Positions 9,284-64,000 of a DNA stretch of 64,000 nucleotides are shown piece after piece; position 1 is the first letter of the stretch, and each line of letters starts with the position of its first letter. The translations under genes were made by a program, and so were the position numbers. The DNA comes from a virus. The stretch covers positions 52,437 through 116,436 of IMG/VR virus record IMGVR_UViG_3300028043_000001. One strand, given 5' to 3'. The notes beneath the pieces were generated by a model that ran no database searches, was not told the DNA's origin, and saw only the letters and a program-made list of their open reading frames with translations.

Positions 9284-9294
9284 GTAGAAGTTTA

Positions 9295-10821: not shown

Positions 10822-10825
10822 GAAA

Positions 10826-22061: not shown

Positions 22062-22145
22062 CTCTATCTTATTTTGACCTCTAAGTTACTGGTTATCTCT
22101 CGAATCGTTTTAAACAAATTTGTTACAGGGGTCTGTTGGAAGGCA

Positions 22146-34140: not shown

Positions 34141-35516
34141 TGCCTAACGAGCATATTGAAAAGGCCAAAGAACTTTTGGCTAAAATGAATGCTGACATTA
34201 ACAGGCAGCAGGAAGATAAGGATGTCAAAAAGCTCCTCGGCGATGTCCTAGACGAACTCAAAAAGGCAGGCGATGGCGAGCGTAAAGGCCGTTTTGACAC
34301 ACAAGATGCCCTCGAGGTTATTAAAACCACCCCCAATCCGGGGGCGGGGCTTCAAAAAATGGTGGAGGTTTCAACCTCTGATGGTCTTATCAAAGACTTT
34401 CAGCGGCTTAACGACGACATCTTTCTGTTGTCCCAGATGCTGAAAAAGGATCCCCGTGAGCTCAAAGTTTACCGGCAGCTCATGGAGCACCCCCTTGTTC
34501 AGAAAACCCAAGACTCTTTTGGTGGAGCTGGGCCTACCCTTTCAGGTCCGAGCACTCATTATGGTGCTGACTGGATTCCGATTGGGTTTTCAGCAGATTT
34601 GATCGACATCGTACGCATGCAGCTCAAAGTTGCTGCTTTGCATCGCCGTATTAACATGCCCAATCCGACTTACAAGCTACCTATTGGCGGCACTGATGTG
34701 ACTGCTTACCTAGTAGGTGAAACCATTACGTCGGGCTCTCCCGAAGGGAGACCGACTGCCTCGCTGCCAACCTCTGGTACTGGGGTAACTTTGGACGCCA
34801 AAAAGATCGGTGCGCTGGTATATTTCTCTGAAGAAATTACCGAAGATAGCATCATCCCCGTCCTTCCCTACCTACGGGATAACATGTCGCGCGCTATGGC
34901 TAATGCCCAAGAACATGCGGTAATCAATGGACAGAAAACTGGCACAATTGATACGGGGTACTCTATTGCCTCAACCGACGTTCGGAAAGCTTGGGATGGC
35001 TATAGGTACAATTGTCAGTCAGCGGCCAAAGCCGATTTTGGCACATGGTCCACAACTACTGCCACTGGCCTTCTGCGCGGCTTGCGAGCGAAAATGGGTA
35101 AATACGGCGTTGATCCCAAAAACCTAGTTTGGGTTACCAGTATTGCAGGCTATCATCAGATGCTTGGTAACGCCGATCTTTTAACCCTCGATAAATACGG
35201 CCCCAATGCGACCTTGCTTAGTGGTGAGCTTGGGAAGTTTGACAACATCCCAATTATCGTCAGCGAGTATGTCGCCGAGAATTTGAATGCCCTCGGCGTC
35301 TATGATGGTGTTACCACGACCAAAACCTTGGTTGCGTTGGTTTACACTCCTGCGTGGCTGTTTGGAGATCGTCGGTCTATCACTGTTAAGACTAAGGACA
35401 ATCCTGAGGATGACAACCATCTTCTGGTCTGTCACCAGCGGCTCGATTTCAAACCCCTGTATAATGTGTCAACAGAGTACATTATCGCACTGGGGTACAA
35501 TCTTGCCAAACTCTAA
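34140..35516 (+). CDS. HK97-fold major capsid protein
   Basis: The 458-residue product has a helical N-terminal delta region (about 1-125) and then HK97 landmarks: STHYGADWIPIGFSADLIDIVR, KLPIGGTDVTAYLVGE, LDAKKIGALVYFSEEITEDS, NAQEHAVINGQ, and a C-terminal FGDRRSITVKTKDNPEDDN. These are N-arm, E-loop and P/A domain features. It directly follows the prohead protease and precedes a strong terminator, as expected for a heavily expressed gene. Confidence 0.92.
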   Translation: MPNEHIEKAKELLAKMNADINRQQEDKDVKKLLGDVLDELKKAGDGERKGRFDTQDALEVIKTTPNPGAGLQKMVEVSTSDGLIKDFQRLNDDIFLLSQMLKKDPRELKVYRQLMEHPLVQKTQDSFGGAGPTLSGPSTHYGADWIPIGFSADLIDIVRMQLKVAALHRRINMPNPTYKLPIGGTDVTAYLVGETITSGSPEGRPTASLPTSGTGVTLDAKKIGALVYFSEEITEDSIIPVLPYLRDNMSRAMANAQEHAVINGQKTGTIDTGYSIASTDVRKAWDGYRYNCQSAAKADFGTWSTTTATGLLRGLRAKMGKYGVDPKNLVWVTSIAGYHQMLGNADLLTLDKYGPNATLLSGELGKFDNIPIIVSEYVAENLNALGVYDGVTTTKTLVALVYTPAWLFGDRRSITVKTKDNPEDDNHLLVCHQRLDFKPLYNVSTEYIIALGYNLAKL

Positions 35517-42583: not shown

Positions 42584-43189
42584 GTGTTTGCATCGTTAGA
42601 GGAATTAAAAGATTTTTTGGGTCTTGGTAGCGTTGAAAGTGCCGAAAATCAATTGCTGTTGTGCCTGAATGCCGCCGACAGTTTCATCAAGACTTTTACG
42701 AATCGTTTCCTAATTTCAACTCGCTTTAACCATAACATAACTCCACAAAACTCCTACGAAATTTGGGTTCCTGAGTTTCCTTTAACCGCACTTCATGGAA
42801 TGACCGCCTTCCAATTTATGTCTGATACCGCTGGAAGTGCCATCGACCTCAATTATACCAGATTTCTTAGGAGTGGGTTGGTCTATAGTAGCGAAGGGTT
42901 TTTTATTACCTCAGTTCCAGGGAGCGTTCTTGTTGACTATACTGCGGGGTATTCTTCAACCGACCCCGAGTTTGAAACCTTAAAATGGATCACACTCGAA
43001 ACTGCAGGGCAGTTTTTCCGAGGTCGAGGCTTGATGAACATTGTATCGTATCAGGCAGGTGGTGCCCAGGTCCAAAAGTATGACGTCAAGATCACAGATG
43101 TTGGTGCAGCTATTGGTATTCTAGGCCCCGAAATAGCTGCTGCCCTAGGAACCTTTGCAGTACGTGGACCCCGTAGTATTGATAGGTAA
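42584..43189 (+). CDS. Head-tail connector protein (gp6-like)
   Basis: The 201-residue product has the gp6-like hallmark start (LEELKDFLGLGSVESAENQL; AADSFIKTFTNRF) with helices that pack into a ring, followed by a beta insertion and a C-terminal ETAGQFFRGRG segment. Connectors of this type join the portal to the neck. GTG start, GGGGTAAG upstream. The order portal, capsid, connector, tail fits. Confidence 0.7.
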   Translation: MFASLEELKDFLGLGSVESAENQLLLCLNAADSFIKTFTNRFLISTRFNHNITPQNSYEIWVPEFPLTALHGMTAFQFMSDTAGSAIDLNYTRFLRSGLVYSSEGFFITSVPGSVLVDYTAGYSSTDPEFETLKWITLETAGQFFRGRGLMNIVSYQAGGAQVQKYDVKITDVGAAIGILGPEIAAALGTFAVRGPRSIDR

Positions 43190-43797: not shown

Positions 43798-46215
43798 ATG
43801 AAAACGGCAGCGAAGCCCCTTGTTTCGATCTTGTGCCCTGTTTTTAACAACGTAAAATACACCCTAGATTGCATCGGGTCGGTGAGAGCTTTCACAAAAG
43901 TTCCTTATGAAATAGTCGTTTGCGGCACTGGAACCGACGGCACGATAGGGTCGATGATGGAGATGGAGCGCACGAGCCCCAACTTCAAGTTTATTCATAA
44001 TGACACCGAGAATACCCACTTTGCTGCTAATGTGAATTTAGGGGCTAAACACTGCACCGGTGACTTCATCTGTCTGCTAAATAATGATACTATTGTAACC
44101 CCCCGCTGGATAGAAAAGATGCTCAATGTTTACAATAAATTGGCGATGATGCACGAACGTAATCGCCCTTGTCCTCCCCCTGCGGTAATTGCCCCCGTTA
44201 GTAATTACGTCATGCAGCACCAAATGGTGCGACTGCCTCCCGACTTTAAGCTCGATCAAATTCCCGAGGTGGGTGAAACTGTCGAAAAGGAAAGCCGCGG
44301 CAGGTGGTATTATTCTGCGGTTGTCTCCGGCTTTTGCATGTTGATCAAGCGAGATGTTTTTGAGCAGCTGGAAGGCTTTGATGAAAGTTTTTACAACGGC
44401 AATGAGGATGTTGACTTCTGCTGCCGCGTCAACGACGCCGGCTATTCCTGCATTGTTGATCGTAGTACTTTTATTTTCCATTACGGTTCACAAACCCTCC
44501 AAGCCTTTCCTGATCGTGACACAGACGGAGGAGTTGCAAACCGCGTACAAATGGCTCTTAAGTACGCTGGTGAGACGTCCAAAGAGAGAAAAATTTCTGG
44601 TAATGTGCGCTTGAAGTGTTCTCAAGGCGATCTTGAAAAGTGGTTGCAAAGACATTACGACCTCTTCGACGTGGTTAACATTGTCGACGATAACAGTGGT
44701 TGGGATATGGAGTCATATTTAAAGGAAAACTGGTCGAAGTGCACCTACCTTCTCATGAAGGGAGTGTTAGAGGTTGAGCAGCGCAGGATGCTTTACATGT
44801 TGTCATACGAACAGGAAATGGATTGGATGGTGGTACTCGACCACGATGAGTTTCTTGAAGAGAAAGTTAACCGCGAGTACCTCCAGAGACTAGTAAATAT
44901 GCCTATTCCTGGAACTCAAGCTTTCGTAGCTCGATGGATTCATCTCTGGAATTCTCCTGACACCTACCACATGAAGTATCCTCCCCATTCCGGAGTTTTT
45001 ATGCGGCGAGTGCAACCAAATCTTGCTTATGTTGGCGGCACCCCGGGCTCCTCTCTTCACTGTAGCCGCATTCCCGAAACTCCAATTGTGGGGTCGGCTC
45101 TAGCGAATATACACATTTTACATTACGGATACGTCGATGCCGCACAGAGAAAAAGGAAACGAGCCTACTACGAGGAGAAAGATCCTAACCCGATTCCTCA
45201 GCTGGTGGGCAGCGATAGCTATAGACACCTTACTGACCAGACATCTATCCTTATTTCGGAGTGGCATGGCTCGCGAGCTTATACCTTATCACTATGTGCA
45301 ATGGCCGAACACGAACCTTCGTATCGGGTGCAAATGCTTTTGGAGTCTGTGGGCTCCCTTGTCGATGAAATTGTTTTTCGGGTACCTCCGGGAAGTCCAC
45401 ACATTCCTTTGCTACAACGCTGGGGTGCAACGATTGTCGAGAAGGAGTGGAATGACCACTATTCTCAAATGAGGAATTCGGCTTTGGACAAAGCCACGCA
45501 AAACTACATTCTTATGTTGGACATTGATGAGTCTCTCACAGATCCTCCGGAGATCATTTTCTTGCTTGAGCAACAGCCAACGGCTATTCTGTTCACCATT
45601 AACAACATTCAGCCGGGGAAGAAACCCCCTGCGGTAACGGAAATCATGAGGTTGTTTTTGAATCACCCTCAAATAAAGTTTCGCGGCCGCCTCCATGAGA
45701 CTATCGAAGATGACATCCAGAAGGTCCGCGGTTCTATTATCTTGAGGGCGAACGGGAAAATCAATCACTTTGGTTTCCTCTCCTCCAAACTTCCTGATAA
45801 ATTGAAGAAGTACATTAAACTTAACAAACGTGCCATCCATGAGGATCCTAAAGACCCCAAACCCTATTTTAACCTTGCGCTGCATTTTATTGAAGATGGT
45901 GAGATTGAACAGGCCGAAGAATATTTAAAGAAGGCAATCGAATTACACCCCAAGTTCACTTTAGCAAAGATTGAGCTTGCTAAAATGTATTTGAGGTTTT
46001 CAAATTCCCTCATTGCCAGTTCGTTGTCAGATGCTCCTCCTAAGCATCCGATTCGTGAGCCTTTAGAGCAGATGGATCGTATGATCAAGATGTTGGTACC
46101 TCCAGGAGAGGCTCTCATTTTCCCAGTTCTAGCCAAAATAGAGAAAAAAGAGGAAGGCCAGTTTACACCCGTGCAAACTAGGACGACAACGGAGGAAGGA
46201 TGGGTGGCTTCTTAG
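43798..46215 (+). CDS. Large multi-domain glycosyltransferase with TPR-like tail
   Basis: The 805-residue product has three GT-A-like domains: (1) about 8-230 with VSILCPVFNNVKYT, CLLNNDTIVTPRW and the acidic GNEDVDFCCRV; (2) about 260-470 with VVNIVDDNSGWD and MVVLDHDEFLEE; (3) about 495-660 with LLESVGSLVDEIVF and ILMLDIDESLTD. Then a TPR-like helical pair (PYFNLALHFIEDGEIEQAEE; about 690-735) and a Lys/Glu-rich tail. GGAGATTTT precedes ATG. Its place within neck/tail genes suggests glycosylation of virion proteins, an inference. It overlaps the next gene by 16 nt. Confidence 0.8.
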   Translation: MKTAAKPLVSILCPVFNNVKYTLDCIGSVRAFTKVPYEIVVCGTGTDGTIGSMMEMERTSPNFKFIHNDTENTHFAANVNLGAKHCTGDFICLLNNDTIVTPRWIEKMLNVYNKLAMMHERNRPCPPPAVIAPVSNYVMQHQMVRLPPDFKLDQIPEVGETVEKESRGRWYYSAVVSGFCMLIKRDVFEQLEGFDESFYNGNEDVDFCCRVNDAGYSCIVDRSTFIFHYGSQTLQAFPDRDTDGGVANRVQMALKYAGETSKERKISGNVRLKCSQGDLEKWLQRHYDLFDVVNIVDDNSGWDMESYLKENWSKCTYLLMKGVLEVEQRRMLYMLSYEQEMDWMVVLDHDEFLEEKVNREYLQRLVNMPIPGTQAFVARWIHLWNSPDTYHMKYPPHSGVFMRRVQPNLAYVGGTPGSSLHCSRIPETPIVGSALANIHILHYGYVDAAQRKRKRAYYEEKDPNPIPQLVGSDSYRHLTDQTSILISEWHGSRAYTLSLCAMAEHEPSYRVQMLLESVGSLVDEIVFRVPPGSPHIPLLQRWGATIVEKEWNDHYSQMRNSALDKATQNYILMLDIDESLTDPPEIIFLLEQQPTAILFTINNIQPGKKPPAVTEIMRLFLNHPQIKFRGRLHETIEDDIQKVRGSIILRANGKINHFGFLSSKLPDKLKKYIKLNKRAIHEDPKDPKPYFNLALHFIEDGEIEQAEEYLKKAIELHPKFTLAKIELAKMYLRFSNSLIASSLSDAPPKHPIREPLEQMDRMIKMLVPPGEALIFPVLAKIEKKEEGQFTPVQTRTTTEEGWVAS

Positions 46216-49067: not shown

Positions 49068-52000
49068 ATGTCAAGGCTTGAGTATTTCTTAAAGATAGAC
49101 ACTAAAGACCTTGATACTGCTTTAAACAAGCTCACACAAGCTGGCAAAGCGTTTGACTCTCTCTCGAGTAAGGGGCGATCGTTTAGTTTGGGTAGCAGTG
49201 TAGAGGCTACTGTAAAGGGCCTTTCCAATATGCAGTATGCCCTAGAAAGACTCGGACCGGTAGTAGACGCACTTAATTCAAAGTATGAAAAATGGGGAGC
49301 CGCAAAATTTCGTCAAGACCCTAGTATTGATCCTCTACGTTTAACTTTCCTCTCTTTAGTGCACCAAATCGAAACAGCTACCACAAAGTATGAGAGATTT
49401 ATTTCGGTTCTAGCACAAACCCCTGCTGCCACTTCTCGTTTTGGGCTAAAGCTTGGAAAACTATTCACAACCGACCCCGAAATTGAAATCAACAAGCTGA
49501 ACAGGGCTTTAACTAGCCTGGAGCAGCGAAAGAAAGTCGGGAAGATCTTGGAAGGTGACTATGAGAAAGAACTTACCAAGCTCACTACCGCCTTAACCAA
49601 GGCGGAAAAAGATTTAGCTTCAGTTGACCTTTCAGTATCAGTACGTGAGCGCCTCAAGGAGGTTGCGGCACATGTCTCAGGTTTAGAAAAATATACCAGG
49701 CTAGTTGAAAAGACAGAAAAGGAGCTCGCGCGCCTAGAGCACTTGCGAGGTACTAAGAAGGGAGCAAAAATCCCTGCTGACGAATTTAAGCAACGCCACG
49801 AGCTGCTTGAAACTCGGCTACGAGACGCTTACGCGGGGGAGGTTTTAGCAAAGCAACGTTACGATTTACTTTCCAAAATTATCGACGTGGGCCCAGAGGC
49901 GGTCAAAATCTTGAAACAGATTGGCGATGGCTACGGAGAAATTGCTACTAAAGTAGGTCAACGCGCCGCAGGGACTTTACCTTCCACCCTCGAATTAGCC
50001 CCTTTGAAATCTCGTGCTGAGCGTTTAGAAAGAGAGTTGACCTCCATAAAAAGGAGAGAAGCGGCGGAACTGAGCCAACCTGCTCCCCCACGAGTGGACC
50101 TCAAGAAGGTAGCAGACCTTGAAAGGCAACGCAGCAAGATGTTAGAATCGCTTGAGCAATCCCAATCATTTCTTACTTTTCCTCCTCTAAATGTAGGAGA
50201 CCGCCCATTCCGCGAAATTTATAAGGAGGAGGTTAGCGAGTATGTAAAGCTTTTAAAGCAGCTCCGTGCAGCCCGCCAGCACGGAGCTGTTACAAGAGAA
50301 GATGTTCTACCTATAATTAGGGGTGAAGAGTTTAACTTCTCTTCTCTTGCCTACCTTCAATCACACCCCAAGAAGATGGGACTACACGAGACACAGCCTG
50401 CTTATCCCGCCATCCTGCGGGAGTGGAAAGAAAGAATTCCTGACATCATCGAAAACCTCAACAGCTTTGTTGGATTCTTGAAAGAAAAACTTCCTGGCCG
50501 TGAATTTATTGAAGTCGCTGCAGGCTCAGGACGCCTCGCGCGAATTTTGAAAGACAAAGGAATCCAAATTCTTGACGCCTCAGATAAATTCGAAGAAGAT
50601 TATTTCGCCGAGGGAGGTGTTGAGCGAGCCAAACAGTTGGGGGTAAAGCAGCGTGACGCAATACAAGCTATTAAGAAGTTTCCCGAGGCTGGATCTGTGC
50701 TTTTGTCGTGGCCCGAGTTTCGGTCTGACCTTGCCGAACGTGTCGCTAAGGCCTTAAAGCCGGGACAGTATCTCACTTATGTTGGCGAAGGTTTGGGAGG
50801 TGCTACTGGAACCGACGAGTTTTTCGCGGCATTAAAGGAGCAATTTGAACTTATCGCAGAACTGCCGTTAAAGACCATTACTGGCATGCGCGACGAAGTC
50901 CAGATTTGGCGGAAAAAAGGTGATGTGAAGGCTCGCGTTCAACAGCTTGAACGCGAGCTCGCTTCGACTCACAAAGAGATTGCACAACTCCAACCTGCTA
51001 TCAAGCCCACAACAACAACTGGAGCTCCACTCTTACCCAGCCCCGAAGGTCAATCTGCATACTATGCCGAAGAGGGTCGAAGATGGGTAGCGGTCGCTTC
51101 GCGTGCTGCATCAAGCCTCTCAGGAGGTTTGATGGGGGGCCTTGATCGCCTACTTGAAAACGTGGATTATAACGCTATTTTTGAGCGCGCACTTGCTGAG
51201 GTGGGTGATCCCCTGCAAGCCGTACGGCTAGCTTCCACCAGGTCAGGGCGATCGAAAGGAGCTGAAGAGAAACTGCAACAAATCCATGACAAACTTCAAG
51301 ACTGGCTTTTGAGTCCCGAACTACTAGATTTATTCAACAAGATTGCATCTGGGTATGGACCGCTCCTTCCTCAGAGTGTGAAAGACGCCTTTAAAGTAAT
51401 GAGAGATCCCCAAACTGGCAAAGTTATTGTGGGTAAGTACGCGAAGTTTTTGCTGGACTTGGAGAAACAAGCTACCGAAATTGTTGACCAGATTGCAGGT
51501 GAGAGTGGGTTGGGAGTAACAGCGAAACCTAAACCTGGGTATGGTTCAACGTTCACCCTCAACACAGAGAAGGAAGCGAGCCAGATCTTTGACGAGATGA
51601 CGAAATTAACTGCTAGGCAAGTTTTCCTCGAATCAATTTTGAAGCATGGACGTAAGGAAAGTGCAGCTGAACTTGAAAGCATCCTGAAAAAACAAGAGGA
51701 GGTATTGACTTTAAAAGAGCAAGACGTTGAAAGGGCCAAAGAAGCTCATGCAGTGGGCACTAAAGCCCATGCCGAAGAGATGCGAAGCCTATCAGCAAAA
51801 CGTGCAGAACTCGGTCGTATATATGCAGCCAAACCCCAAGATCCCCGCGCCCTTGCGGCTTATCGAATGGAAATGGATACAGTCAACGAAAAAATGCAGG
51901 AGTCTAGAAGCAGACATGCCGCCCTAACTTCAGATTTGCAACGAGCTGAAACTGAGTTCCAGAAAACTGAAAAGATTGTTAAGAACTTGGGATTCGCTTA

Positions 52001-55000
52001 TGAGTCAGCCCAAGCTGCCGAAAAACTTGCAGCAAAAGGCCAAGCAGCCGTTCCTCCTGCTTGGATAACCTTTTCTCAGAGGGAACTCAAGGAGGTTAAG
52101 ACGCGATTACAAGAACTCGGCGTTTTGTGGGATACCCTTCGTACTCGCGAGCATCTTGAAATCCTGCCCCCCGCTGAAAGGGTTGGCAGAGATATTATGA
52201 GATCAAAACGGACCACCGTTGCTATACCCTACGACGCAAGCTGGGAACAATTAGCTGAAGATTACCCCGAAGAGTATTTCCAAGAGCTAGGTAAACGTAT
52301 TAGTGATGACGTGAAGATGTCACGTCCTGACCTTTATGAAAGCTTGGGTTTAAAGGAGGACTTTGAGCAACTGGAAGCTAGTGAGGCTCAATCTCAAGCA
52401 ATTGTTAGACGCAGAATGCAAGATTCGGGCCTTACGCCACTAAATGCCTTCCTTACAGGGATCAAAAACGTTCGTGAGCTGTTCACCAGCATGTTTCGTG
52501 AGCCTGGTCATGACCTTGCCTCTCTAAACCAGCTATTAGGGCAATTTGACCGAACTGTGCGGCGTAGCCCCGAAGCTATTTCAGAATTCGATCAAAGGAC
52601 CCAACAAGTATTGTCACATTTAGAGCCCGCAATCGGCGAAGTCACTGGTTACGTTAAGCGTGACTGGTCTGATGCAACCTTAACTATGAGTGCCAAGTTT
52701 CTGGATTTCCTCGATGTTATGAAAGATGTTGATCCCAAATTTCTTGCGCGCGAAAGAAAACAACTAGACGAGTTTTATGGGGCTCTACAGAGGGTTCCGT
52801 TAGCCAGCATTCTTAGCTCGATGAGTAAGGTCAAAGATCTTGCTCTAGAAGGCTTTTATCGTCCAGGGGCCTTAGATGAGGCCCAAGCAGAGCTTTTCAA
52901 GGTTTCCGAAACTTTGAGCTTGACCGGAAAAGATTTTGAAAAGGTGAAAATAAAGGCTTCGGGCCTCGCACAGTCACTAAACACGCAGGTGCTAGATCAA
53001 GCTTTGACTGTTCTCGAAGACGTGTGGCGTTCGCCTGCAAGAGGTGCCCACGCTTTACAAGAAGCAGAAGCGGCGTTTAAGGCCTTCACACATGAGACCG
53101 TGAAGACGACAGAAGGCGCGAAAACTGTATTTAGAGAAGTACCAATTACGCAAATTGAGCCTATTTATCAAGCATGGCGAAAAGTGTATGACGTAGTTGA
53201 GCGTTACCAAAAAAGGGTTCAAGAGGGGGGTGACCAAAAAGAAGGTAAACAATTTTTGCAACGATTATCTGCATTCCCCTTTCTAACCGAAGAAAAGACT
53301 TCCACCCTGGCGAACGTTTTAAAGCTTGCTCCAGATGAAAGTGCGCGGCGGGTACTACTCGAATACGCTAGATGGCTAGGTGGCGACTACGTTGAAGAAA
53401 TTGAAAAGGCTGCCATAAACTTAGATTTGCGCAAAGTTTTTAAGAAAATTGCTGGATCGGCTCCAAAGGGGATCATCGCAGATTTTGAGCCGCAGTTTGC
53501 TGCAGCCTTTCAAGGATTACAGCATGCGTTTGTACAAGCTAAAGAACCTATTGAGGCTATTAACCTTGTACGCAAGTTGGCCCTTGAGATGGGTTTTCTT
53601 GCTAGCAACATCAAAGAAGTAGGGGTTAATGCTGCTGGCATCACAGGGAGTTTAGGTCACCTCGCAAAACTGACTGGCGAAGCCCGTTTTGGGACTTTAA
53701 CCTCTGAGTCAGTTCCTGAGTGGAATAAAATGATCAAGGGACTTAAGGAGTCCACCCTTATTCTTGGTCACGAACACTTACCCGCACTCAAAGCAATTGA
53801 ACAGGCGTGGAATAATACTGGTGACTCCGAAAGAAAGTATTTTGCCTCCATGTTAAAACATAAACGCCTGGGGCGCGAACTTGCCGACCATATGATTGAA
53901 TTTTTTGGTGCGCGTACCTCAAAAGAGCCGCTTGCCTTTGAGGGGTTTCACTTTGAGGAAGTTGCGGGGCTAAAAAAACCTGGTGAGGCTTTTGAGTGGC
54001 TGTTGCAGCAAACTGACGATGTCGTTGGGTTTGTTGAACAGATGAGAGTAATTGGTAAGCAATGGAAGCCCCTTTCGCAGGACGTCATCTTCCCTGGAAG
54101 CCTGGACGTCATCCGTTCTTCCATCTCAAGCATGGGGAGGATTACTGAAAATTGGCTGCCCTGGATAATTGAAACTCTCGCAAAGGAGGGTCCAGGAGCT
54201 ATCCCGATAGCTGCGTACAAGCCGTCCCTTGTAGAACATCTACCCAAACTTAGGGAGAGGATAGCTAAATCTCGTGAATCCGTGGTAGGAGAGGGTACCC
54301 CAATTGAGTCTACTATGCTCACCTCCTTAGACGTCCAAGCCATTAAAATGCAATTGGTTATAAGTTTGTTTGAGAAGTTAAGAAGTGCAATTAGAACTGG
54401 TAAAGTAGAGACAATTGATTGGGGTAAGGAGACGGCGAATGCCTCACAAAAAGCCTCCTCAGCCATCGAAGGAAGTTACCAACATCTCGTTGGAGGATTG
54501 CAAAAGTTTTTACGTGGTGGAGAGCATGTAACTGGAGCTCTCACTGAAATGATGCGCATGCCGTTGGGGCAGGAAGGTGGATTCGGTCTTAAAGCAGTTT
54601 TGAGTAGGCAGTTTGTGGAGTCACTTTCACCAGTACAGATTAGTAAAATTAGTGTAGGGCTAGGAGAGGTAGCAACTCAGGCACCAGAAATTGCTAATGA
54701 AGCTGTCAGAAACTTGTTTTTAACGCGGCTTAGGGAGGCCTCAAAAATCATCGGAACTTATGTTAGGAGCCACGCTTTTGAGATAGACCCTGAAGAACAT
54801 GCAGAAGCCCTCCTAGAGGCAAAAAGTGCCCTGAAAGTTGCTTCGAGCAATTTCATGAAGTATATTCCGAAGACTGTGAGAGAATTGGCAAAGACACCGA
54901 GTCAACTCGAAGAACTCTTCATGCAGCAGATAATCCAGGCCGAAACTGGTATTGTTCCACCAATGACAGTTACAACGCGGGCAACCCACCAGGCTGGCAC

Positions 55001-58000
55001 AAGTGCTAAAAAAGTTGCTACTAGTGCTGAACAGATGTCGGTTGCTTTGAAAGACGTGGCTGAATTCTTTGGAAAGGGAGTTGCCTTTGCAACCTACTGC
55101 GCAGCGGAGAACCGAAAAGGGTTGGTAAAAAATTTGAGCGAGGCCCCCCTAGCCGAGATGTACGAAGGCCCACGTTCACGGAGTTTCGCTGCTCTAGCTC
55201 GTAGCGGCGTCATTCCCCCCGAACAGTTCTTTATGTTTTCAGGGAAGCATGGCTTCGATTCTATCTGGTCTGTGAAAAAGGCGTACGACAAGTATTTGCA
55301 GCCTCAGGAAGTCCCTGAAATGGTTGAAGTTGTTAAAGAGCAGATCCAGAACATTAACCGCGAACGGGCTGAAGCAATCTCGCGTGCCAAAAAGGCAGGG
55401 GAAGAATGGCAACACCTTCCCCAACCTATCGAAGAGATAGTCTATTATGCCCAGGAGTATGCTTTACAGAAGCGGGGTGGACTAGGAACTACTTACCTGC
55501 AGGCAATTAGAGAAGCTGCTGACCAGCTCGGGATTCGTTTACATGAAGTTGCACCTGTGACCTACGATTTAAGGCGAGCCTCAACGAGATTTGAAGGTAG
55601 CTTGACTGACATGGCCGTCAAAGCTGTAGCTGCAAATCGCGCCATGGAGAGAGGAACTGCGGCTACCGAAGAAGTGAACAGAGAGTTTCAACAATATGGT
55701 CTACGTTTTCAACCCTCCGAACGTTTAGGACGTCGTGCCCTCTCACCTTCAGGTTTCCAGGCGATTTCAAAAGAATATCCGACTTCAGATGTTACTTGGT
55801 TTGCGGGAGACGCAAAGTCTTACCTTATGGCTCCTATTGGCACCGCCATTCACGAGGTTGTTCTAAAGAACGTGCTCGGGGCCCTCGTTAAAAGTGTTTT
55901 GAAAGGCAGCAAAGTTGCGGGGGAGCAGCTGCTTAGCCTCCTAAAAGGAACGAGTGCAGAGCCGCCGATTAGTGAGGGGGAGTTAAAGAGACAACTCGAC
56001 ACACAGTTCCGTGAAGCTGTCTCCCAAAAAGGCATGAACGCAGAGGCCCTGATTAAGTCAGCCGGAACCACCATGGATAAAACTCAAGATACCATGCTTG
56101 CAGCAGCACAGAATATACTGGGAAATATGTTTCGCGCTATCGGTCACATAATTGAGGTTGAAGGGGGTGAAAAGTTTTTAGAGTCGTCTGAGGCTTTAGT
56201 GGCAGCAATGAAGTCCAAAGAAATCCGAATTTCGCCAGAGTTTGCTCCCTTAGGTCCTCAGGGAGCGCCCTTGAAGGTGTTGCAAAAAAAGTTTCCACAG
56301 GCGGCATTCCTTATTGAAGAAATTAATCAGGCGTTGGGCCCTGATATGGCAGCTGCCTTTCTCAAGTCCTTTTCAGGCACAATGGACTTATTGGTTCAGG
56401 TAGGAGATCAGGCGAGAATCTTAGACCTAAAAACGACGACATGGGAAGCGAAGCAAAAACACGCAGTGCAGTTGGTTGGGTACCAACGGTTACTTGGTCT
56501 ATTAAGTGATGCAGTTAAAGTTTCAGGTCTAGGCATCATGCCAGGTTTAGATGTAGCAACTTCACCCGAAAAGTGGATAAAATGGATAGACCGCGCGAAA
56601 TTGGAGCCCGCAGTGCGCGACTTTTTTGACTTTCTTATGCAGCCCTTTGTCGACATTCCGCAAGTTAGGGAATATGTTCAAGCTCACCCCAACCTAGCTC
56701 GCTCGATCAAGAATCTCGTCATGAATTATCAGACAAATATTCAGACAGGATTTAAAGATGCCATCAAAGTAGCTCCCCGAATTTCAGTGGATGCCGTCGC
56801 GGAAACTTTACTTCCTGAGGCCCAAGCTAAACCAGTAGAACAGAAGGTATTACAGGATATAAACTTGATAGAGAGGCTCGGGGCGATGCAAGTCGGAGCT
56901 CTTCGACAACTCCGCAAACAAATGGCCCGTGACCAGGAAAAAATTGCAGACGAGTTGAGGGATCTTGGAGGAGGTGCTGGACAAGAATTCACTCCTACAA
57001 CTTCAGGGCTTTTAAAATCTTGGCAAGCCTACGGCGCATTTATAAAAGCTATTGATGCTGAACTAGCTAAGCCTGATGTCCGAAAAACGGCGAAGCGGCC
57101 CATTGCCGAACTTTCAGAGACCACAAAAGCAGATGTGGCTACTTATCTACAAGACCTTGCTGGACTTGAAAAACAAATTCCTGCTTCGATTCAAGAGCTT
57201 ACCCTCTTAAAACTCATGGCTTTAACCAACCAAAAGGATACAATGTCGAAAGCCCTCAGCGAAACTGCAGACACTGTAAAAGAAGGTGAAGGTAAAATTA
57301 CCAATATAGTAGGCGAACTTTTTAAAGAGGTGGGCAAAACTAAAGAAGAGAAACCCGTCCTGCTGAACATTTTCGACGCCATAAACGCAAAGAAATTTCC
57401 CCTCGCTGAGGTAGGGCATGCTTGGGGCGAATATGGCCATGCGATTAGCAGGCAAGGAAAACCAATCGAATCCTTCACTGCGGCCTTAAGTGCTCTACAA
57501 CAAACCGCCCGCCAGTTTATCGGCGGCTTTGCCCAGTACGGTGGGACGGTACCTTTCCTCGATGATCTTATAAAACGGTACAATGAGACTGCCACTGCTG
57601 AAAAGAGGCTAGTACCATTTGGTGAGAAGTGGCAGCAGGGCCGCGCGATTGCGCAAGAGATTGGTGAAACCCAAGCAAATTTAGCAAAGTTAGATCGAAT
57701 GCTGCTCAAGGATCTGCCTGCCGCTGAAGCGCTCGGTGTGGCAGCTGAAAGAGTAGCCTTAGAATCCAAACTTATTGCGTTGGCTAAAGAGCAGTTAGCA
57801 ATTATTGAATATATGTCGGAAGCCTTAAAGAAGGTAGTAACTCAAGAGGATCTACTCAAGGAGGCTCGTGCTCGTAGCGTCGAGGAAGTCAAGAGTCTTG
57901 CTGTAGCGCTTAAGGTAGGCAAAATCCAAGAAGCAACTGCCCTAAGTGGATCCGAAGCGCGGCTTGCAGGTATGGAACCATTAATAGCTGCCCAAGAGCG

Positions 58001-61000
58001 GTTACGAATTTTACTAACTCAAGCCGCCTTCCAAAACCTAGGTGCTACCGGAGTCGTGCCAGGGTTAGGTGAAACTGCATTCGGCTATGGGATTCCAATA
58101 GCCACTTCGGCCGACATCTTAACAAAATTTTTGGGAGCAAACGAAAAAGACTTGCAAATGAGGCTCGAACGTTTTAGGGCCGCCTTTGGCGGAAATTTAA
58201 GCCAATTGATGAAAGATGTTAATGTGTTCAGCGAACTCTCCGGCGTACCTGTATTTGATACTACAATTCTAGAAAAATTAGAGGCGAAACTTGCGAAGGT
58301 TCAAGTTTTGAGGGCTGGTGCAACTGATGATAGGTTCGTTAAACGTGAGGAAGAACTCACGCGTTTACTGGGGACTGAACAGGTTCGAGCGTTAGAGCAC
58401 GTTACTCTTGTTTGGGAAAAACTTGAAAAAGAAAGGGCAAGATACAAAGAAACGGCTCGAGGGATTGAAAAGGAGAAGGCAATTGAGGTTGGCAGAGAGA
58501 ATCTCTCTAAGTTTAGGGCAGATCTTGCAGATTATAATAAAGAAATCGACAACATGTTGAGGATGGGTCGGACGTCCGAAACTCGGTTTGCCAGGCAACA
58601 TGAGGTTGGGAGAATTGTGCAAGAAATTCACAAAGGGATGGCTGAACTAACCCCTCTTTACGGCGAAACCCATTTTGAGCCCCTAGCTAAGGAATTTAAA
58701 GAAGTTTCTGAAGAAGCGCGAAAGACACAAATATATGCCCGCGGTGGCTTGACTCTTTGGGAAAGGTTGACAAACACTGTTAAATCAGCGAGAAATGAAT
58801 TTGCTGACTTATTCTTATATCAAGTACGTTGGTATACCTCGATGCTCATCTTTTGGGGCATTTTTAACAAAATTACCGAAGGGTTCGGGGCTCTTGTAAA
58901 CGCCCAACGAGACATTGAACGCGCAACTATTAACCTCCGTGAGCAATCGGGTGAAGTAGTTGCAAACTACCACCGCCTCGAGTTAATTTCCCGCACTGCT
59001 ATTTTTGGTGCAATGGTACGCTTGGGACTGGATTCTCGGCAGGCAAGTGAAGCTCTTTATCAACTTGGTTCCGCAGGCCTTACTGCAAGAGAAGCACTAG
59101 CCGCAATGGGTCCGGTCACAGATCTTGTTGTAGGCACCCAAGCGGACATGCGCGAAACTGTCAAGACCGTAGCTGGACTGTACAACGTGCTTTCAGGGTC
59201 TGTATCTCAAACTTCCACCGTTTTAGAGGCTGCGGGTTTGCAAATGCAGTCACATTCGCGATTTACTGAAAGTGCCATTGCACAAGCGACCCGCTTCAGG
59301 CAGATTACTGATGTCCTCGCCATGATTTTCCGTGATCACCAAGTTGAAATGTATGAACTGAACTTGGGCTACCAATACTCAATTGCTTCAGCAGATATGG
59401 CTGGTCTTTCTTTCACGGAATTATCGGCAATCTTAGCAGTTCTAAACGATAATATGTTAAAAGGCTCTAAAGCTGGTCGCGCCGTTAATGATATTTTGGT
59501 GGGGCTGGCAAAGCAACCCTACGACGTTCTTGCGAGTTTTCGCGAAATGGCCTTAATGTTAGCCGAAGGAATGCCAAGCAAGGCCCAGCGCATTCGGGCA
59601 GTTGTAGAAGACTGGAACAAGGCGAAGTTTGAAAATAAGACCATTTTTCAGACCCTGGGTGAATTAGCAAAACTTGTCGAAGCTACGGGCATGGAAGTTG
59701 GTGTTTTAGGTCGCACTTTTGAGAACTTTGGGATAGTCGGTGGCCGCGCATTTGCACCTATTATGAAGTATTGGAAAGAAATCGAAATAGAGCAGTTACG
59801 CTTACACCACAGTGCGGCTGGTGTTAGTGAGGTTATGGCAGAACGAATGTCTAACACCATGGAAAGGAATGCCCAGAAGGTCTCCGCATTTATCCAGAAA
59901 TCATTCTATGAATTATTTCTCATGATTCACAACGTTTCTGCCTTTGGCCTTTCAACACTTGCCAAACTTGGCACCTCCGTTTCAGGCTTTTCGGAAAATG
60001 TGCGTAGGGGGTTTGAGACCGATACAGGGGTTTCTTTTTGGGGAAGAATGTTTGAAACCGCCTTGAACTTTTTACCCTTAATACTGTTAGTTGGAGGTAG
60101 TATTGCCTCCTTTGGGGGGCTCGCAACCAACGTCTTTACAAGAGTTGGGGCACGAGCTATTGGAGTGGTTACTTCACTTACCGCTTTAAGAGCCTCTGGA
60201 ATGGGCTTAGTCGGAGTTTTTACAGGAGTTGCGGGAGTCATTGGGAATTTCATTGCCCTACTTTTCACTGCCCCATTTTGGAAGTTTATTGCGGGAGCCG
60301 TGTTAGTCTCATTAGCAATTGGAGGTTTAACCGCACTATTTAGAAAACTCACTATGACTGTTGACGATTTTGCGGCAGAAGCGGAGAAGTCATTTGCTGA
60401 CTTCTCCGAGGACGTTTCGAAGCGCAACCAAAAGATTCAGGAGTCCATTAGCAAGGTATCCACCACCCTAAAGTTGCGGCGCGAAGCTGAAGAAGCCATG
60501 CAAGAGGTTGCAAACAAGGGAGCTAAAGAACCAGTCACTGACGAGCAAGTCGCAAGAGTGCAACGTTATGGCGTAATGGTCGGAGCGTCAAGGGAAGAGC
60601 TTAGCAAAAAAGTTGAAACTGTGGGCGACTTAACAGCATTGTATAACAAGCTCGATCCTTTATATCAAAAGGTTCTCAACGACATGAAGACTGAGGAGTT
60701 TCAACTCGATTTGACTTCTAAAGGGTGGATCAAATACCGCAAGGCTATTGAGGACGCAATGCGTGCTAAACGTGAAGCTGAGGCTGCCGAAAAAAGGTTG
60801 CGGGAGAAACCGCTACCTATTCCACTTGCACCAGGATTCTTTGGAGGAGGGTATATTGAGCCCACAGACGCAGAGTTGAAATCACGCGAAGCGGAGGCCG
60901 CGATGCGGCGCAGAGATGCTGAGAAACAGGAAAAATCTGCGGCAGACGCGGCGCTACAACAGTTTCTTAGCACTATTGTAGGTGCTATGCAGCACGTAGA

Positions 61001-64000
61001 CATTGAAAAACAGGTCCAAGAGGCGGTCAAATTATCCCAGGGGGGAGAGTCACAAAAAGCCAAGGAGAAATTGAAAAACATTTATGCCGATATGATTAAC
61101 CGCATCACAAAGGACCAAGCAGAATTTGACATCCTCGCAGAAAACCTTTTCAAAAAAACTGGAAAAACTCCCGCAGAAGAAACCCAAGAGGTGTATCGCG
61201 ACAAACTAAAGAAGCTTTTAGAAGGCCCCAAGGCCATGGAAGAATTTTTGCTTTACCTTGAAAGAACTCGGGGAGCTGAATTGGGAGTAGAGGCGTCTCG
61301 GAAATCCGCTGAATCTGTACACCAAGATCGATTAAAAACGTTAGATGAAGAAAAGCGGAAGCTGGACATAGAGATTCAACAAATACTGGCAAACCTTGAC
61401 AAAGTTTCGAAGGAGAGGATATTCAAAGAGAAAGAGGTTGAAGCAGCACTAAAAAGGGTGCATGACTTAGAACGCCAAGCTGCCGATATTGAAGAACAAC
61501 GGTACCAAGAAGAGACACGATTTCAGCGTCAACACCGTTTCAAGGGTACTATAGTTTATGAAGAAGCGGAGAAGAGAATAAAAGCTGAAGGGGCGCGGAG
61601 ACGGGAGGAGCGTCACCTCAAAGAAATTCAAGACGATAAGAGGTTGCTTGATGAAAGGTTCAAAGCATTCGAGTCAATGATCGAACACTGGCTGTATGGA
61701 TTGTACCGCTCGTCTGCTGTGCGCATAGATCTTGAAAAGGCTTTGAGTGTAGAAAAATCCAAACAGGTAACTATTGATTTAAGCAAGTATGTAAAAGTGG
61801 TTGGCGGAGCAGACATTTCCAAGCTGTCTCCAGAGTTTGCGGCCGCCCTTGCGCAGCTTGCCAAAGATTTTTATACAATGTTCGGGAAGCCATTGGTAGT
61901 CACTAGCGGGTTTCGCACCGAGGAGTATCAAAGACAACTTCGCGCAGAATTTGAGGCTGGTACAAGAAAGGGGCCGGTTGCTACTGCTGAGTTAAGCAGA
62001 CACCCTAAAGGGGAGGCTGTAGATGTCGACAAAGAAACCATGGTGTTGTTGAGACAAATGGACTTGGCTAGGTACGGCTTGGAAAATTTAGCTCGCATCA
62101 ACGACGAGATCCATATTCAGCGGCAAAAAATGACTAAGGGCGTTGTCATAACTTCGAAGGAGGTAGCTGAGGGAGCGAAGCAAGGTCTGGAAGAGATAGT
62201 CATTTTTCTAGAAGTTTGGGCACCCAAGCAACCACAGCGAGTTAAACAGCGAATTGAACAGCTGTTGGCTGGCTTTAGAAACGTACCTGGGGAGTTTATA
62301 ACGCGCCGCTTAGAAGTTATGGATCGTCTAATGAAAGTTGCAAAAGTTGTTGGAGTTGACCCCGATCAGATTTTCAACCTTTTTTGGGGTCCTGTTGGCA
62401 ATCTTCTCCAGTCCGGTGCTTTTATTCCTGAAGGCATGATCAGAAGATATTTCGAGGCTTTTGGTGAGCGCGTTGACAAAACTCGCTCTGCCTTTATTTC
62501 CGGCCACCAAAAGCGTGAAGAGGCCCAGAAAATCATTCGTTCCTTCTTTGAGATAGAAGAGTATTGGAAGCCCGAAATGCTTCCAAGAATGTTTCGCACT
62601 GTTTCGGTGGTTGCAGAAGCGGCTGGGCTTAGTGGCCGCCGTGTGTATGATATGATGATACAATTTTTCAACCCGGATGCCCTTCGTAAAATTCTCGAGG
62701 GTAATTTAGAAATATCTGCAGAATTTTTCCTGATGTTTCAAGAACAAGCGAAACAGTGGCTGAGTGGCAATATTCCAGTCCGAATGTATAAGACGTTCGA
62801 GTCAGCTCTCAGAGACATGATGCAGTCAGGGGAGATATTTACTACGCGCGCTTTAGACACGTATGCCAAAGCCCTAAAGTCCTTTCCTACAGTAGATTTG
62901 ACGGCGGCCGCTCAGGATTTTGTTAAATACTACCACATGTTGGCGCAGAGGAAGCCCGACTTTGGAGTGAAAGATTTACAAGCAATGATTTCCTATATGT
63001 CACAGTTTGGCGCTACTTCCGAAGAAAAGTGGAAGGCTATCGGTGATATTGCCGAGTCGCGCATCCAAAAAATTCGTAGTGAGTGGAAGAAAGCGGGGAG
63101 TGACCTCCTTGAAGACACTTCCGATATTAAGCAAGGCTTTGAAGCGATGTGGTGGGCAGCTATTAAAGGCCTATCTGATTTTGCTCAAAAGATGCGCAGC
63201 CCCCTCAAGATGCTTTCCGACACAGTCTCGGGTACTTTGGAGTCTATGAGGAGTTCTTTTGAGGAGTATCTCTACGATTCAATATTGCGCCAAAGGAAAC
63301 CATTCCAGGAGTATGTAAATAAGTTTGCACAAGATTTGGCTCGCATGTCATCTAAAAATATTTCCGAAATGGTTTTCGGTGGCCTCTCGCGTTTTTTACT
63401 CAGCGGCTTGGAAAGCTTGTTTGGGATTGTGCAACCAAAAGGGCCTCAACCTGGAATGACGGCTGCTGAGACTCAAAAGGCTGTTACAGATGTACAGAAA
63501 TGGGCTGAAGGTAGAGGGGAAAAAGTCGCGACCCAGGTCTACCAAAAAACCTCAGTGCAGTTAGACGTGCAAAGAAATTCACTCTTAGAACGAATTCTTA
63601 TGGCCATTTCCACCCTGGGTAGAAAACTAGGCGCAAGTACTCCTGAAACGCCAGAAGAACCTTCCATTCCAGAATCCTCCTCTGAGTATCCCGAAGGCTT
63701 TAACCCCACTGAAGCGGGGTATGGAGGCTGGCCTCTTGAGGGTGCAGCTCCCGAGATAACTTCCATGGGAGCCGCTGGGGCAGAAACTACTGGTCTCTTT
63801 GGTGGCATATTAGGCCAAATCGCGTCGTTTGGTTCTTGGATTTGGAGTCTAATTTCACAACTTTTCACCAGCATCGGCGGCATTTTCATGAAGATTCTCA
63901 GCAGCCTTGGAAGTTTATTCGGGTTTGGGATGCATGAAGGTGGACTTGTGTTCAGGCGCTTCCAACTTGGTGGTTGGGGTGCCGGGGCCGGAGGAGGAGG
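49068..64000 (+). CDS. Giant tape-measure protein, at least 4,977 codons, with embedded enzyme-like domains
   Basis: The frame stays open to the window edge, so the 3' end is missing. It starts ATG after GAGGTGA, directly behind the chaperones. The TP901-type core is near residues 3445-3485 (LSFTELSAILAVLNDN, MLKGSKAG), and hydrophobic helices lie near 3250-3265, 3665-3685 and 3715-3760. Long heptad-rich stretches fill the rest. Separate enzymatic-looking domains are given as own entries (methyltransferase-like, PD-(D/E)XK, M15 peptidase). Near the window end it has the Gly-rich HEGGLV-type C-terminus typical of tape measures. Tape length sets tail length; the fully helical length would be about 0.15 nm per residue, roughly 750 nm, an upper-type estimate since inserted globular domains do not count. 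Confidence 0.9.
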   Translation, partial: MSRLEYFLKIDTKDLDTALNKLTQAGKAFDSLSSKGRSFSLGSSVEATVKGLSNMQYALERLGPVVDALNSKYEKWGAAKFRQDPSIDPLRLTFLSLVHQIETATTKYERFISVLAQTPAATSRFGLKLGKLFTTDPEIEINKLNRALTSLEQRKKVGKILEGDYEKELTKLTTALTKAEKDLASVDLSVSVRERLKEVAAHVSGLEKYTRLVEKTEKELARLEHLRGTKKGAKIPADEFKQRHELLETRLRDAYAGEVLAKQRYDLLSKIIDVGPEAVKILKQIGDGYGEIATKVGQRAAGTLPSTLELAPLKSRAERLERELTSIKRREAAELSQPAPPRVDLKKVADLERQRSKMLESLEQSQSFLTFPPLNVGDRPFREIYKEEVSEYVKLLKQLRAARQHGAVTREDVLPIIRGEEFNFSSLAYLQSHPKKMGLHETQPAYPAILREWKERIPDIIENLNSFVGFLKEKLPGREFIEVAAGSGRLARILKDKGIQILDASDKFEEDYFAEGGVERAKQLGVKQRDAIQAIKKFPEAGSVLLSWPEFRSDLAERVAKALKPGQYLTYVGEGLGGATGTDEFFAALKEQFELIAELPLKTITGMRDEVQIWRKKGDVKARVQQLERELASTHKEIAQLQPAIKPTTTTGAPLLPSPEGQSAYYAEEGRRWVAVASRAASSLSGGLMGGLDRLLENVDYNAIFERALAEVGDPLQAVRLASTRSGRSKGAEEKLQQIHDKLQDWLLSPELLDLFNKIASGYGPLLPQSVKDAFKVMRDPQTGKVIVGKYAKFLLDLEKQATEIVDQIAGESGLGVTAKPKPGYGSTFTLNTEKEASQIFDEMTKLTARQVFLESILKHGRKESAAELESILKKQEEVLTLKEQDVERAKEAHAVGTKAHAEEMRSLSAKRAELGRIYAAKPQDPRALAAYRMEMDTVNEKMQESRSRHAALTSDLQRAETEFQKTEKIVKNLGFAYESAQAAEKLAAKGQAAVPPAWITFSQRELKEVKTRLQELGVLWDTLRTREHLEILPPAERVGRDIMRSKRTTVAIPYDASWEQLAEDYPEEYFQELGKRISDDVKMSRPDLYESLGLKEDFEQLEASEAQSQAIVRRRMQDSGLTPLNAFLTGIKNVRELFTSMFREPGHDLASLNQLLGQFDRTVRRSPEAISEFDQRTQQVLSHLEPAIGEVTGYVKRDWSDATLTMSAKFLDFLDVMKDVDPKFLARERKQLDEFYGALQRVPLASILSSMSKVKDLALEGFYRPGALDEAQAELFKVSETLSLTGKDFEKVKIKASGLAQSLNTQVLDQALTVLEDVWRSPARGAHALQEAEAAFKAFTHETVKTTEGAKTVFREVPITQIEPIYQAWRKVYDVVERYQKRVQEGGDQKEGKQFLQRLSAFPFLTEEKTSTLANVLKLAPDESARRVLLEYARWLGGDYVEEIEKAAINLDLRKVFKKIAGSAPKGIIADFEPQFAAAFQGLQHAFVQAKEPIEAINLVRKLALEMGFLASNIKEVGVNAAGITGSLGHLAKLTGEARFGTLTSESVPEWNKMIKGLKESTLILGHEHLPALKAIEQAWNNTGDSERKYFASMLKHKRLGRELADHMIEFFGARTSKEPLAFEGFHFEEVAGLKKPGEAFEWLLQQTDDVVGFVEQMRVIGKQWKPLSQDVIFPGSLDVIRSSISSMGRITENWLPWIIETLAKEGPGAIPIAAYKPSLVEHLPKLRERIAKSRESVVGEGTPIESTMLTSLDVQAIKMQLVISLFEKLRSAIRTGKVETIDWGKETANASQKASSAIEGSYQHLVGGLQKFLRGGEHVTGALTEMMRMPLGQEGGFGLKAVLSRQFVESLSPVQISKISVGLGEVATQAPEIANEAVRNLFLTRLREASKIIGTYVRSHAFEIDPEEHAEALLEAKSALKVASSNFMKYIPKTVRELAKTPSQLEELFMQQIIQAETGIVPPMTVTTRATHQAGTSAKKVATSAEQMSVALKDVAEFFGKGVAFATYCAAENRKGLVKNLSEAPLAEMYEGPRSRSFAALARSGVIPPEQFFMFSGKHGFDSIWSVKKAYDKYLQPQEVPEMVEVVKEQIQNINRERAEAISRAKKAGEEWQHLPQPIEEIVYYAQEYALQKRGGLGTTYLQAIREAADQLGIRLHEVAPVTYDLRRASTRFEGSLTDMAVKAVAANRAMERGTAATEEVNREFQQYGLRFQPSERLGRRALSPSGFQAISKEYPTSDVTWFAGDAKSYLMAPIGTAIHEVVLKNVLGALVKSVLKGSKVAGEQLLSLLKGTSAEPPISEGELKRQLDTQFREAVSQKGMNAEALIKSAGTTMDKTQDTMLAAAQNILGNMFRAIGHIIEVEGGEKFLESSEALVAAMKSKEIRISPEFAPLGPQGAPLKVLQKKFPQAAFLIEEINQALGPDMAAAFLKSFSGTMDLLVQVGDQARILDLKTTTWEAKQKHAVQLVGYQRLLGLLSDAVKVSGLGIMPGLDVATSPEKWIKWIDRAKLEPAVRDFFDFLMQPFVDIPQVREYVQAHPNLARSIKNLVMNYQTNIQTGFKDAIKVAPRISVDAVAETLLPEAQAKPVEQKVLQDINLIERLGAMQVGALRQLRKQMARDQEKIADELRDLGGGAGQEFTPTTSGLLKSWQAYGAFIKAIDAELAKPDVRKTAKRPIAELSETTKADVATYLQDLAGLEKQIPASIQELTLLKLMALTNQKDTMSKALSETADTVKEGEGKITNIVGELFKEVGKTKEEKPVLLNIFDAINAKKFPLAEVGHAWGEYGHAISRQGKPIESFTAALSALQQTARQFIGGFAQYGGTVPFLDDLIKRYNETATAEKRLVPFGEKWQQGRAIAQEIGETQANLAKLDRMLLKDLPAAEALGVAAERVALESKLIALAKEQLAIIEYMSEALKKVVTQEDLLKEARARSVEEVKSLAVALKVGKIQEATALSGSEARLAGMEPLIAAQERLRILLTQAAFQNLGATGVVPGLGETAFGYGIPIATSADILTKFLGANEKDLQMRLERFRAAFGGNLSQLMKDVNVFSELSGVPVFDTTILEKLEAKLAKVQVLRAGATDDRFVKREEELTRLLGTEQVRALEHVTLVWEKLEKERARYKETARGIEKEKAIEVGRENLSKFRADLADYNKEIDNMLRMGRTSETRFARQHEVGRIVQEIHKGMAELTPLYGETHFEPLAKEFKEVSEEARKTQIYARGGLTLWERLTNTVKSARNEFADLFLYQVRWYTSMLIFWGIFNKITEGFGALVNAQRDIERATINLREQSGEVVANYHRLELISRTAIFGAMVRLGLDSRQASEALYQLGSAGLTAREALAAMGPVTDLVVGTQADMRETVKTVAGLYNVLSGSVSQTSTVLEAAGLQMQSHSRFTESAIAQATRFRQITDVLAMIFRDHQVEMYELNLGYQYSIASADMAGLSFTELSAILAVLNDNMLKGSKAGRAVNDILVGLAKQPYDVLASFREMALMLAEGMPSKAQRIRAVVEDWNKAKFENKTIFQTLGELAKLVEATGMEVGVLGRTFENFGIVGGRAFAPIMKYWKEIEIEQLRLHHSAAGVSEVMAERMSNTMERNAQKVSAFIQKSFYELFLMIHNVSAFGLSTLAKLGTSVSGFSENVRRGFETDTGVSFWGRMFETALNFLPLILLVGGSIASFGGLATNVFTRVGARAIGVVTSLTALRASGMGLVGVFTGVAGVIGNFIALLFTAPFWKFIAGAVLVSLAIGGLTALFRKLTMTVDDFAAEAEKSFADFSEDVSKRNQKIQESISKVSTTLKLRREAEEAMQEVANKGAKEPVTDEQVARVQRYGVMVGASREELSKKVETVGDLTALYNKLDPLYQKVLNDMKTEEFQLDLTSKGWIKYRKAIEDAMRAKREAEAAEKRLREKPLPIPLAPGFFGGGYIEPTDAELKSREAEAAMRRRDAEKQEKSAADAALQQFLSTIVGAMQHVDIEKQVQEAVKLSQGGESQKAKEKLKNIYADMINRITKDQAEFDILAENLFKKTGKTPAEETQEVYRDKLKKLLEGPKAMEEFLLYLERTRGAELGVEASRKSAESVHQDRLKTLDEEKRKLDIEIQQILANLDKVSKERIFKEKEVEAALKRVHDLERQAADIEEQRYQEETRFQRQHRFKGTIVYEEAEKRIKAEGARRREERHLKEIQDDKRLLDERFKAFESMIEHWLYGLYRSSAVRIDLEKALSVEKSKQVTIDLSKYVKVVGGADISKLSPEFAAALAQLAKDFYTMFGKPLVVTSGFRTEEYQRQLRAEFEAGTRKGPVATAELSRHPKGEAVDVDKETMVLLRQMDLARYGLENLARINDEIHIQRQKMTKGVVITSKEVAEGAKQGLEEIVIFLEVWAPKQPQRVKQRIEQLLAGFRNVPGEFITRRLEVMDRLMKVAKVVGVDPDQIFNLFWGPVGNLLQSGAFIPEGMIRRYFEAFGERVDKTRSAFISGHQKREEAQKIIRSFFEIEEYWKPEMLPRMFRTVSVVAEAAGLSGRRVYDMMIQFFNPDALRKILEGNLEISAEFFLMFQEQAKQWLSGNIPVRMYKTFESALRDMMQSGEIFTTRALDTYAKALKSFPTVDLTAAAQDFVKYYHMLAQRKPDFGVKDLQAMISYMSQFGATSEEKWKAIGDIAESRIQKIRSEWKKAGSDLLEDTSDIKQGFEAMWWAAIKGLSDFAQKMRSPLKMLSDTVSGTLESMRSSFEEYLYDSILRQRKPFQEYVNKFAQDLARMSSKNISEMVFGGLSRFLLSGLESLFGIVQPKGPQPGMTAAETQKAVTDVQKWAEGRGEKVATQVYQKTSVQLDVQRNSLLERILMAISTLGRKLGASTPETPEEPSIPESSSEYPEGFNPTEAGYGGWPLEGAAPEITSMGAAGAETTGLFGGILGQIASFGSWIWSLISQLFTSIGGIFMKILSSLGSLFGFGMHEGGLVFRRFQLGGWGAGAGGG
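50430..50945 (+). other. Methyltransferase-like domain within the tape measure
   Basis: About residues 455-626. EFIEVAAGSGRLARILKDKG (motif I, Glu482) is a SAM-binding loop; then ILDASDKF (acidic second strand), SVLLSWPEF (motif IV-like), LKPGQYLTYVGEGLGG and a C-terminal strand pair. The loop EVAAGSGRL fits the class I fold better than chance. Catalytic activity and substrate are unknown. Confidence 0.65.
55800..56650 (+). other. PD-(D/E)XK nuclease-like domain within the tape measure
   Basis: About residues 2245-2530. The signature order of RecB/Cas4/AddB-type nucleases is present: PIGTAIHEVV (His2262), SGTMDLLVQVG (Asp2440), RILDLKTTTW (Asp2453, Lys2455), and AVQLVGYQRLLG (Gln2468, Tyr2472). 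All motifs are in frame with the tape measure and in the expected order, with a helical insert of about 175 residues between the first and second. The match is by eye; a fold search would settle it. Confidence 0.7.
61800..62125 (+). other. M15-type peptidase domain within the tape measure
   Basis: About residues 4245-4353. LVVTSGFRTEEYQRQL is the start of the VanY/D-Ala-D-Ala carboxypeptidase M15 fold, SRHPKGEAVDVD provides two zinc ligands (His4312, Asp4319), and DEIHIQ the third (His4349). Such domains cut peptidoglycan cross-links during entry and are known in tape measures. Intact ligands suggest activity. Confidence 0.8.

Follow-up and report, generated by a model that had tools for sequence, protein, structure and literature searches.

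A putative RecB-like PD-(D/E)XK nuclease core within a giant, multi-domain phage tape-measure protein

Can the protein that sets the length of a phage tail also bring a nuclease into the host cell? This question is raised by the 3' terminal 64 kb (positions 52437-116436, hereafter the window) of a 116,436-bp IMG/VR virus contig, in which the original prediction placed a RecB/Cas4-type nuclease inside a tape-measure protein (TMP). TMPs act as tail-length rulers and are normally threaded into the host before the DNA. The open reading frame (ORF) in question is the largest gene in the window, lies downstream of the head and tail genes (Table 1) and, by ORF listing and translation, encodes at least 4,977 amino acids, with its 3' end beyond the contig edge. 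Its proposed identity as a tape measure is confirmed by three sets of models, namely PF10145 (aa 3320-3494, E 7.8e-12, 45.9 bits against a cut-off of 33.2), the NCBIfam model TIGR01760 (E 2.2e-9, 36.8 bits against a cut-off of 28.8) and the PHROG TMP families (best 1.7e-15).

Table 1. Positions in the window of the tape-measure ORF, its domains and motifs, and the upstream virion genes.
Feature	Nucleotides	Strand	Residues and basis
Terminase large subunit (TerL)	19138-21639		
Portal	22053-23459		
Head maturation protease	33001-34140		
Major capsid protein	34140-35516		
Head-tail adaptor	42584-43189		
Giant TMP ORF	49068..63998	+	stop-free frame to contig end
Class I SAM-methyltransferase-like domain	50502..50912	+	aa 479-615; phrog_19090 E 1.2e-11
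GTAIHE, proposed RecB His motif, assignment unsupported	55839..55856	+	aa 2258-2263
Segment modelled together with relatives	56220..56702	+	aa 2385-2545; weakly predicted strand-strand-helix-strand
PD-(D/E)XK nuclease core	56367..56501	+	aa 2434-2478; RecB-like HMM, hhalign, PDDEXK_1
TP901/PhageMin_Tail core	58872..59915	+	aa 3269-3616; TIGR01760, PF10145
Hydrophobic membrane-helix-like stretch, after TMP core	60048..60341	+	aa 3661-3758; Kyte-Doolittle scan
VanY / M15-type peptidase-like domain	61821..62045	+	aa 4252-4326; Pfam, PHROG

The approximately 3,200 residues ahead of the TMP core contain both a methyltransferase-like domain and the nuclease core. The methyltransferase-like domain resembles stand-alone methyltransferases of large phages (tblastn, best 7e-12), and its profile support is stronger than that of the nuclease core. 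The peptidase-like domain near the other end of the frame matches PF02557 (E 2e-4) and PF08291 (E 3.4e-4), both under the Pfam cut-offs, as well as PHROG endolysins (best 5.4e-5). A motif search of the TMP ORF found no RNA-polymerase motif, including DxDxD. Both GC and GC3 are uniform over the whole ORF in a composition scan, which counts against a chimeric frame or a recently inserted segment.

TerL is 833 aa long, with about 430 aa, perhaps an extension or an intein, preceding the part matched by terminase families. An 882-aa protein encoded between the portal and the capsid protease (24567-27215) has an ATP-dependent DNA ligase domain (KYDG; PF01068, 9.5e-18) and an HxDLRL stretch that on visual inspection resembles the LigD phosphoesterase; this is an odd location for a repair enzyme, and the protein is a candidate virion protein. 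In the contig upstream of the window, one gene (L038, 1224-3653) encodes a DNA polymerase A with a fused N-terminal uracil-DNA glycosylase domain. A FolE2-type GTP cyclohydrolase (479-1855) and a radical-SAM protein (6615-7820) are a possible sign of 7-deazaguanine chemistry, and a cluster of glycosyltransferases and small methyltransferases (4440-11488) is accompanied by an 805-aa glycosyltransferase/TPR protein amid the tail genes (43798-46215).

The nuclease core lies in a single uninterrupted frame, in which GTMDLL (aa 2437, nt 56376), LDLKTT (aa 2452, nt 56421) and QLVGYQ (aa 2468, nt 56469) form the string GTMDLL-x9-LDLKTT-x10-QLVGYQ (aa 2437-2473), with core residues D2440, D2453, K2455, Q2468 and Y2472 at canonical internal spacing. 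The first three of these residues, in GTMDLL and ILDLKTT, make up the catalytic D...(D/E)xK pattern with its hydrophobic strands, and QLVGYQ corresponds to the RecB-type Q-x-x-x-Y helix motif, aligning with the invariant Q, L and Y columns. The Pfam model PDDEXK_1 (PF12705) matches aa 2403-2479 when a 333-aa segment is searched (E 1.1e-4; 22.6 bits, with the cut-off at 22), and on other cuts of the nuclease region it scores 21.2-21.9 bits, slightly below the cut-off; phrog_298 (exonuclease) and phrog_1706 also match the core, with E-values of about 4e-4 to 3e-3. In addition, a family HMM was built from 93 RecB-like nucleases retrieved with a strict DNA core pattern from viral contigs and GTDB genomes. 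Among 280 window ORFs it matches the TMP ORF only (aa 2434-2478), with an E-value of 6.6e-8 (Z = 38,880) that is partly circular, because the motif searches that supplied the seeds of the HMM were themselves derived from the window sequence, and we therefore rely on Pfam and PHROG for independent support. An hhalign comparison of the core with the family profile (A6) gave 8.5e-7, and the nearest solved structure is MGME1.

Judged by these sequence comparisons, the GTMDLL-LDLKTT-QLVGYQ stretch is a genuine PD-(D/E)XK signature in a giant multi-domain TMP, and the profiles support a RecB/MGME1/Cas4-like core with D2440/D2453/K2455 and QLxxY intact. The core of the predicted nuclease stands, but a full domain with a motif-I Glu and a RecB His is putative, and the evidence for a full, active enzyme is incomplete.

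Of the motifs originally read as ordered and in frame, GTAIHE is the insecure one. All four strings do share one frame, but support for a single domain covers only the other three: GTAIHE lies 179 residues ahead of GTMDLL, whereas the distance from G-x-x-x-H to G-x-x-D in the 93 relatives has a median of 57 and a range of 50-140, and the PSSM score of its flanks is inside the shuffle range. The pattern GTxxH is present four times in the TMP (aa 897, 1527, 1802 and 2258). One alignment places GGEKFLE (aa 2366), which has no His, near the normal spacing of the His motif, and the candidates for the motif-I Glu, E2385 or E2417/E2418, do not score above chance. Repeated attempts at a joint alignment of GTAIHE and the Glu strand as AlphaFold input failed, and the assignment of GTAIHE as the RecB His motif of this nuclease is doubtful.

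Structure prediction, which had been proposed as a check, yielded low-confidence AlphaFold models (mean pLDDT of 50.6 for aa 2215-2560 and 57.4 for aa 2385-2545) that are nevertheless not contrary to a restriction-endonuclease fold. The model of the shorter segment has a short strand and a helical insert, followed by two strands, a helix, one more strand and another helix, an order that fits the expected PD-(D/E)XK core but lends it weak support, because the AlphaFold input alignment itself consisted of nucleases. A Foldseek search of the PDB with this model returned nothing significant, the best entries being bunyavirus PD-(D/E)XK endonucleases (E 0.27), and Cas4-like and MGME1-like proteins were among the weak viral matches in BFVD. 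Taken together, the models do no more than suggest a restriction-endonuclease fold for this segment. A likeness of aa 2322-2435 to SubA (PDB match, E 0.002) was judged to be chance.

To what extent such an arrangement occurs elsewhere was assessed in several collections. Direct searches of IMG/VR, GTDB genomes and INPHARED returned no useful close relatives of the nuclease region, nor did searches with the TMP core or TerL; the TMP core matches distant phage TMPs only, mostly of Enterococcus and Vibrio phages, and no homologous TMP carrying the nuclease domain was found in the collections searched. Among the matches listed, motif-anchored scans recovered RecB-like nucleases solely as stand-alone genes, although these scans require a narrow motif core, so that rarer TMP fusions could escape them. 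Similarly, the RecB-like nucleases recovered by pattern are, among the matches listed, nearly all stand-alone proteins of about 200-370 aa. The ORFs of at least 600 aa in the 214 loci examined gave no significant match to the family HMM. Pattern matches in ORFs longer than 400 aa were treated as chance, none having the Q-L-x-x-Y context, and in a 300-genome sample of one phylum the sole long-frame match was, by eye, an AddA-like helicase-nuclease. In these small, motif-biased samples a RecB-like core fused to a TMP is thus uncommon, which does not imply that it is unique.

We tentatively favor, at somewhat short of an even chance, an active RecB/MGME1-type PD-(D/E)XK nuclease that is delivered into the host by the multi-domain TMP. 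The sequence comparisons establish the order of the domains, the protein's identity as a TMP, the methyltransferase-like domain and the nuclease core; nuclease activity, ejection, cytoplasmic delivery and a DNA target are what we infer here, and we do so because of the TMP domains and their gene context, the matches to both independent and family profiles, the presence of the D/D/K/Q/Y residues, and stand-alone relatives that are phage exonucleases (phrog_298). There are two precedents: gp96 of phage P23-45 for an enzyme delivered as a TMP fusion (PMC10770324), and the effector Tme for a nuclease in an ejected protein related to TMPs (PMC11126660). The TMP would be packed inside the tail tube, and at infection its peptidase and membrane segments would assist in breaching the envelope. 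If the P23-45 case is a guide, the N-terminal part would reach the cytoplasm along with the incoming DNA, where the nuclease domain would fold and might act on host, resident or competing DNA, or on DNA ends. Against this reading, it is hard on steric grounds to fit a folded nuclease into the middle of a tail tube, and the phage has to survive synthesis of the nuclease late in infection. The insecure His and Glu motifs, the low AlphaFold confidence, the non-significant Foldseek results and the lack of a homologous TMP in our searches also count against a delivered nuclease.

An active, injected nuclease would be, after RNA polymerase, only the second enzyme type that we could find acting in the host by way of a phage TMP, and would link phage tails to the nuclease effectors of contractile injection systems. 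TMPs could then be general cargo carriers, and very long ones may hide further enzymes. A broader version, which we consider rather unlikely, is that this TMP is a multi-enzyme vehicle, which brings in the methyltransferase, the RecB-type nuclease and perhaps other, unrecognized domains of the N-terminal ~3,200 aa on a single injected chain; the tape measure would then double as a first-strike kit against the DNA of the host or competing DNA.

Several alternatives have to be weighed against a delivered, active nuclease. The RecB-type fold may have been exapted as a non-catalytic, DNA-binding domain that keeps or steers the front end of the genome within the tail or at the membrane pore. In its favor, the motif-I Glu and RecB His are unrecognizable at normal spacing, and an active DNase would be a risk within a structural protein. 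We regard this as unlikely; D2440, D2453, K2455, Q2468 and Y2472 are all kept, with canonical spacing in the core, which is unexpected after a long loss of catalysis. Slightly less likely still, in our judgment, is a nuclease that serves the phage's own genome, trimming its ends or aiding early recombination or replication in the manner of RecB or lambda exonuclease, whether delivered early or acting during assembly out of the TMP pool. The nearest stand-alone relatives are indeed phage exonucleases, the phage encodes RecA-, SbcD- and SbcC-like proteins, and the TMP match is the sole PDDEXK_1 match of the contig; yet a missing stand-alone exonuclease could sit past the contig ends, and such a role offers no evident reason for fusion to a TMP.

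That the string is a chance likeness in a very long protein, and not a nuclease domain, is improbable. The match spans just about 45 aa, where the profiles stop, the Pfam score falls on either side of its cut-off and the AlphaFold confidence is low, but the core pattern arose in 0 of 4,000 shuffles of the TMP protein, independent Pfam and PHROG models converge on identical residues, and the P23-45 TMP, which is equal in size, has no match to the same family HMM. An assembly artefact that fused a nuclease or methyltransferase gene to the TMP gene is the least probable explanation, for although the join is seen on one metagenomic contig without support from a second genome, the frame is open over 4,977 codons with even GC and GC3.

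The closest parallel among known systems is gp96 of Thermus phage P23-45, a 5,002-aa TMP with an N-terminal RNA polymerase. According to PMC10770324, virions contain this polymerase within the full-length TMP, and the authors suggest that it works at the TMP pore while DNA enters. The two proteins share giant size, an N-terminal enzyme, membrane segments and a peptidase domain (a metallopeptidase in gp96), and as in P23-45 the enzymatic regions described here, the methyltransferase-like domain and the nuclease core, precede the TMP core at aa 3269. They differ in that the gp96 enzyme is a two-barrel RNA polymerase, whereas the present TMP is without DxDxD, and in that the gp96 peptidase resembles M23/MepM types whereas that of the present TMP is M15-like; a BLASTP comparison of the two gave no significant match. 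A peptidoglycan-hydrolase motif also occurs in the TMP of mycobacteriophage TM4, according to a passage of PMC1796659, and is comparable to the M15-like domain, but its target is the cell wall and not DNA.

A second group of comparisons concerns the nuclease and its carrier. Stand-alone phage RecB-/Cas4-like exonucleases (phrog_298, PF12705) have G-[TS]-x-D, D-x-K-[TS] and Q-L-x-x-Y with the same internal spacing as here, although they are mostly single-domain proteins of 200-370 aa, whereas the present core forms part of a TMP, with His and Glu motifs that are unclear. Phages and conjugative elements also encode polyvalent proteins, which are very large, have many domains and have been proposed to enter the cell together with injected DNA (Iyer et al., 2017, PMC5512222); they mix methyltransferase, peptidase and other enzyme domains, and a text search of that paper finds no mention of tape measures, whereas here the carrier is the TMP itself. 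With regard to nucleases, the original statement that none was known in tape measures agrees with the titles, abstracts and selected passages of the open-access literature, where we found no report of one in a phage TMP, but it does not extend to Tme of Streptomyces davawensis, which passages of PMC11126660 describe as a TMP-related effector of a contractile injection system with an active EndA-type endonuclease. Both Tme and the present protein combine a nuclease with a TMP-related protein, and Tme is an ejected protein with demonstrated nuclease activity; the Tme nuclease is EndA-type (DRGH/H-N-N motifs), C-terminal and part of a bacterial contractile injection system, whereas the core described here is RecB-type and belongs to a phage TMP. 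Seen alongside these systems, a nuclease core in a TMP is a new variation on the recently described theme of TMP-enzyme fusion.
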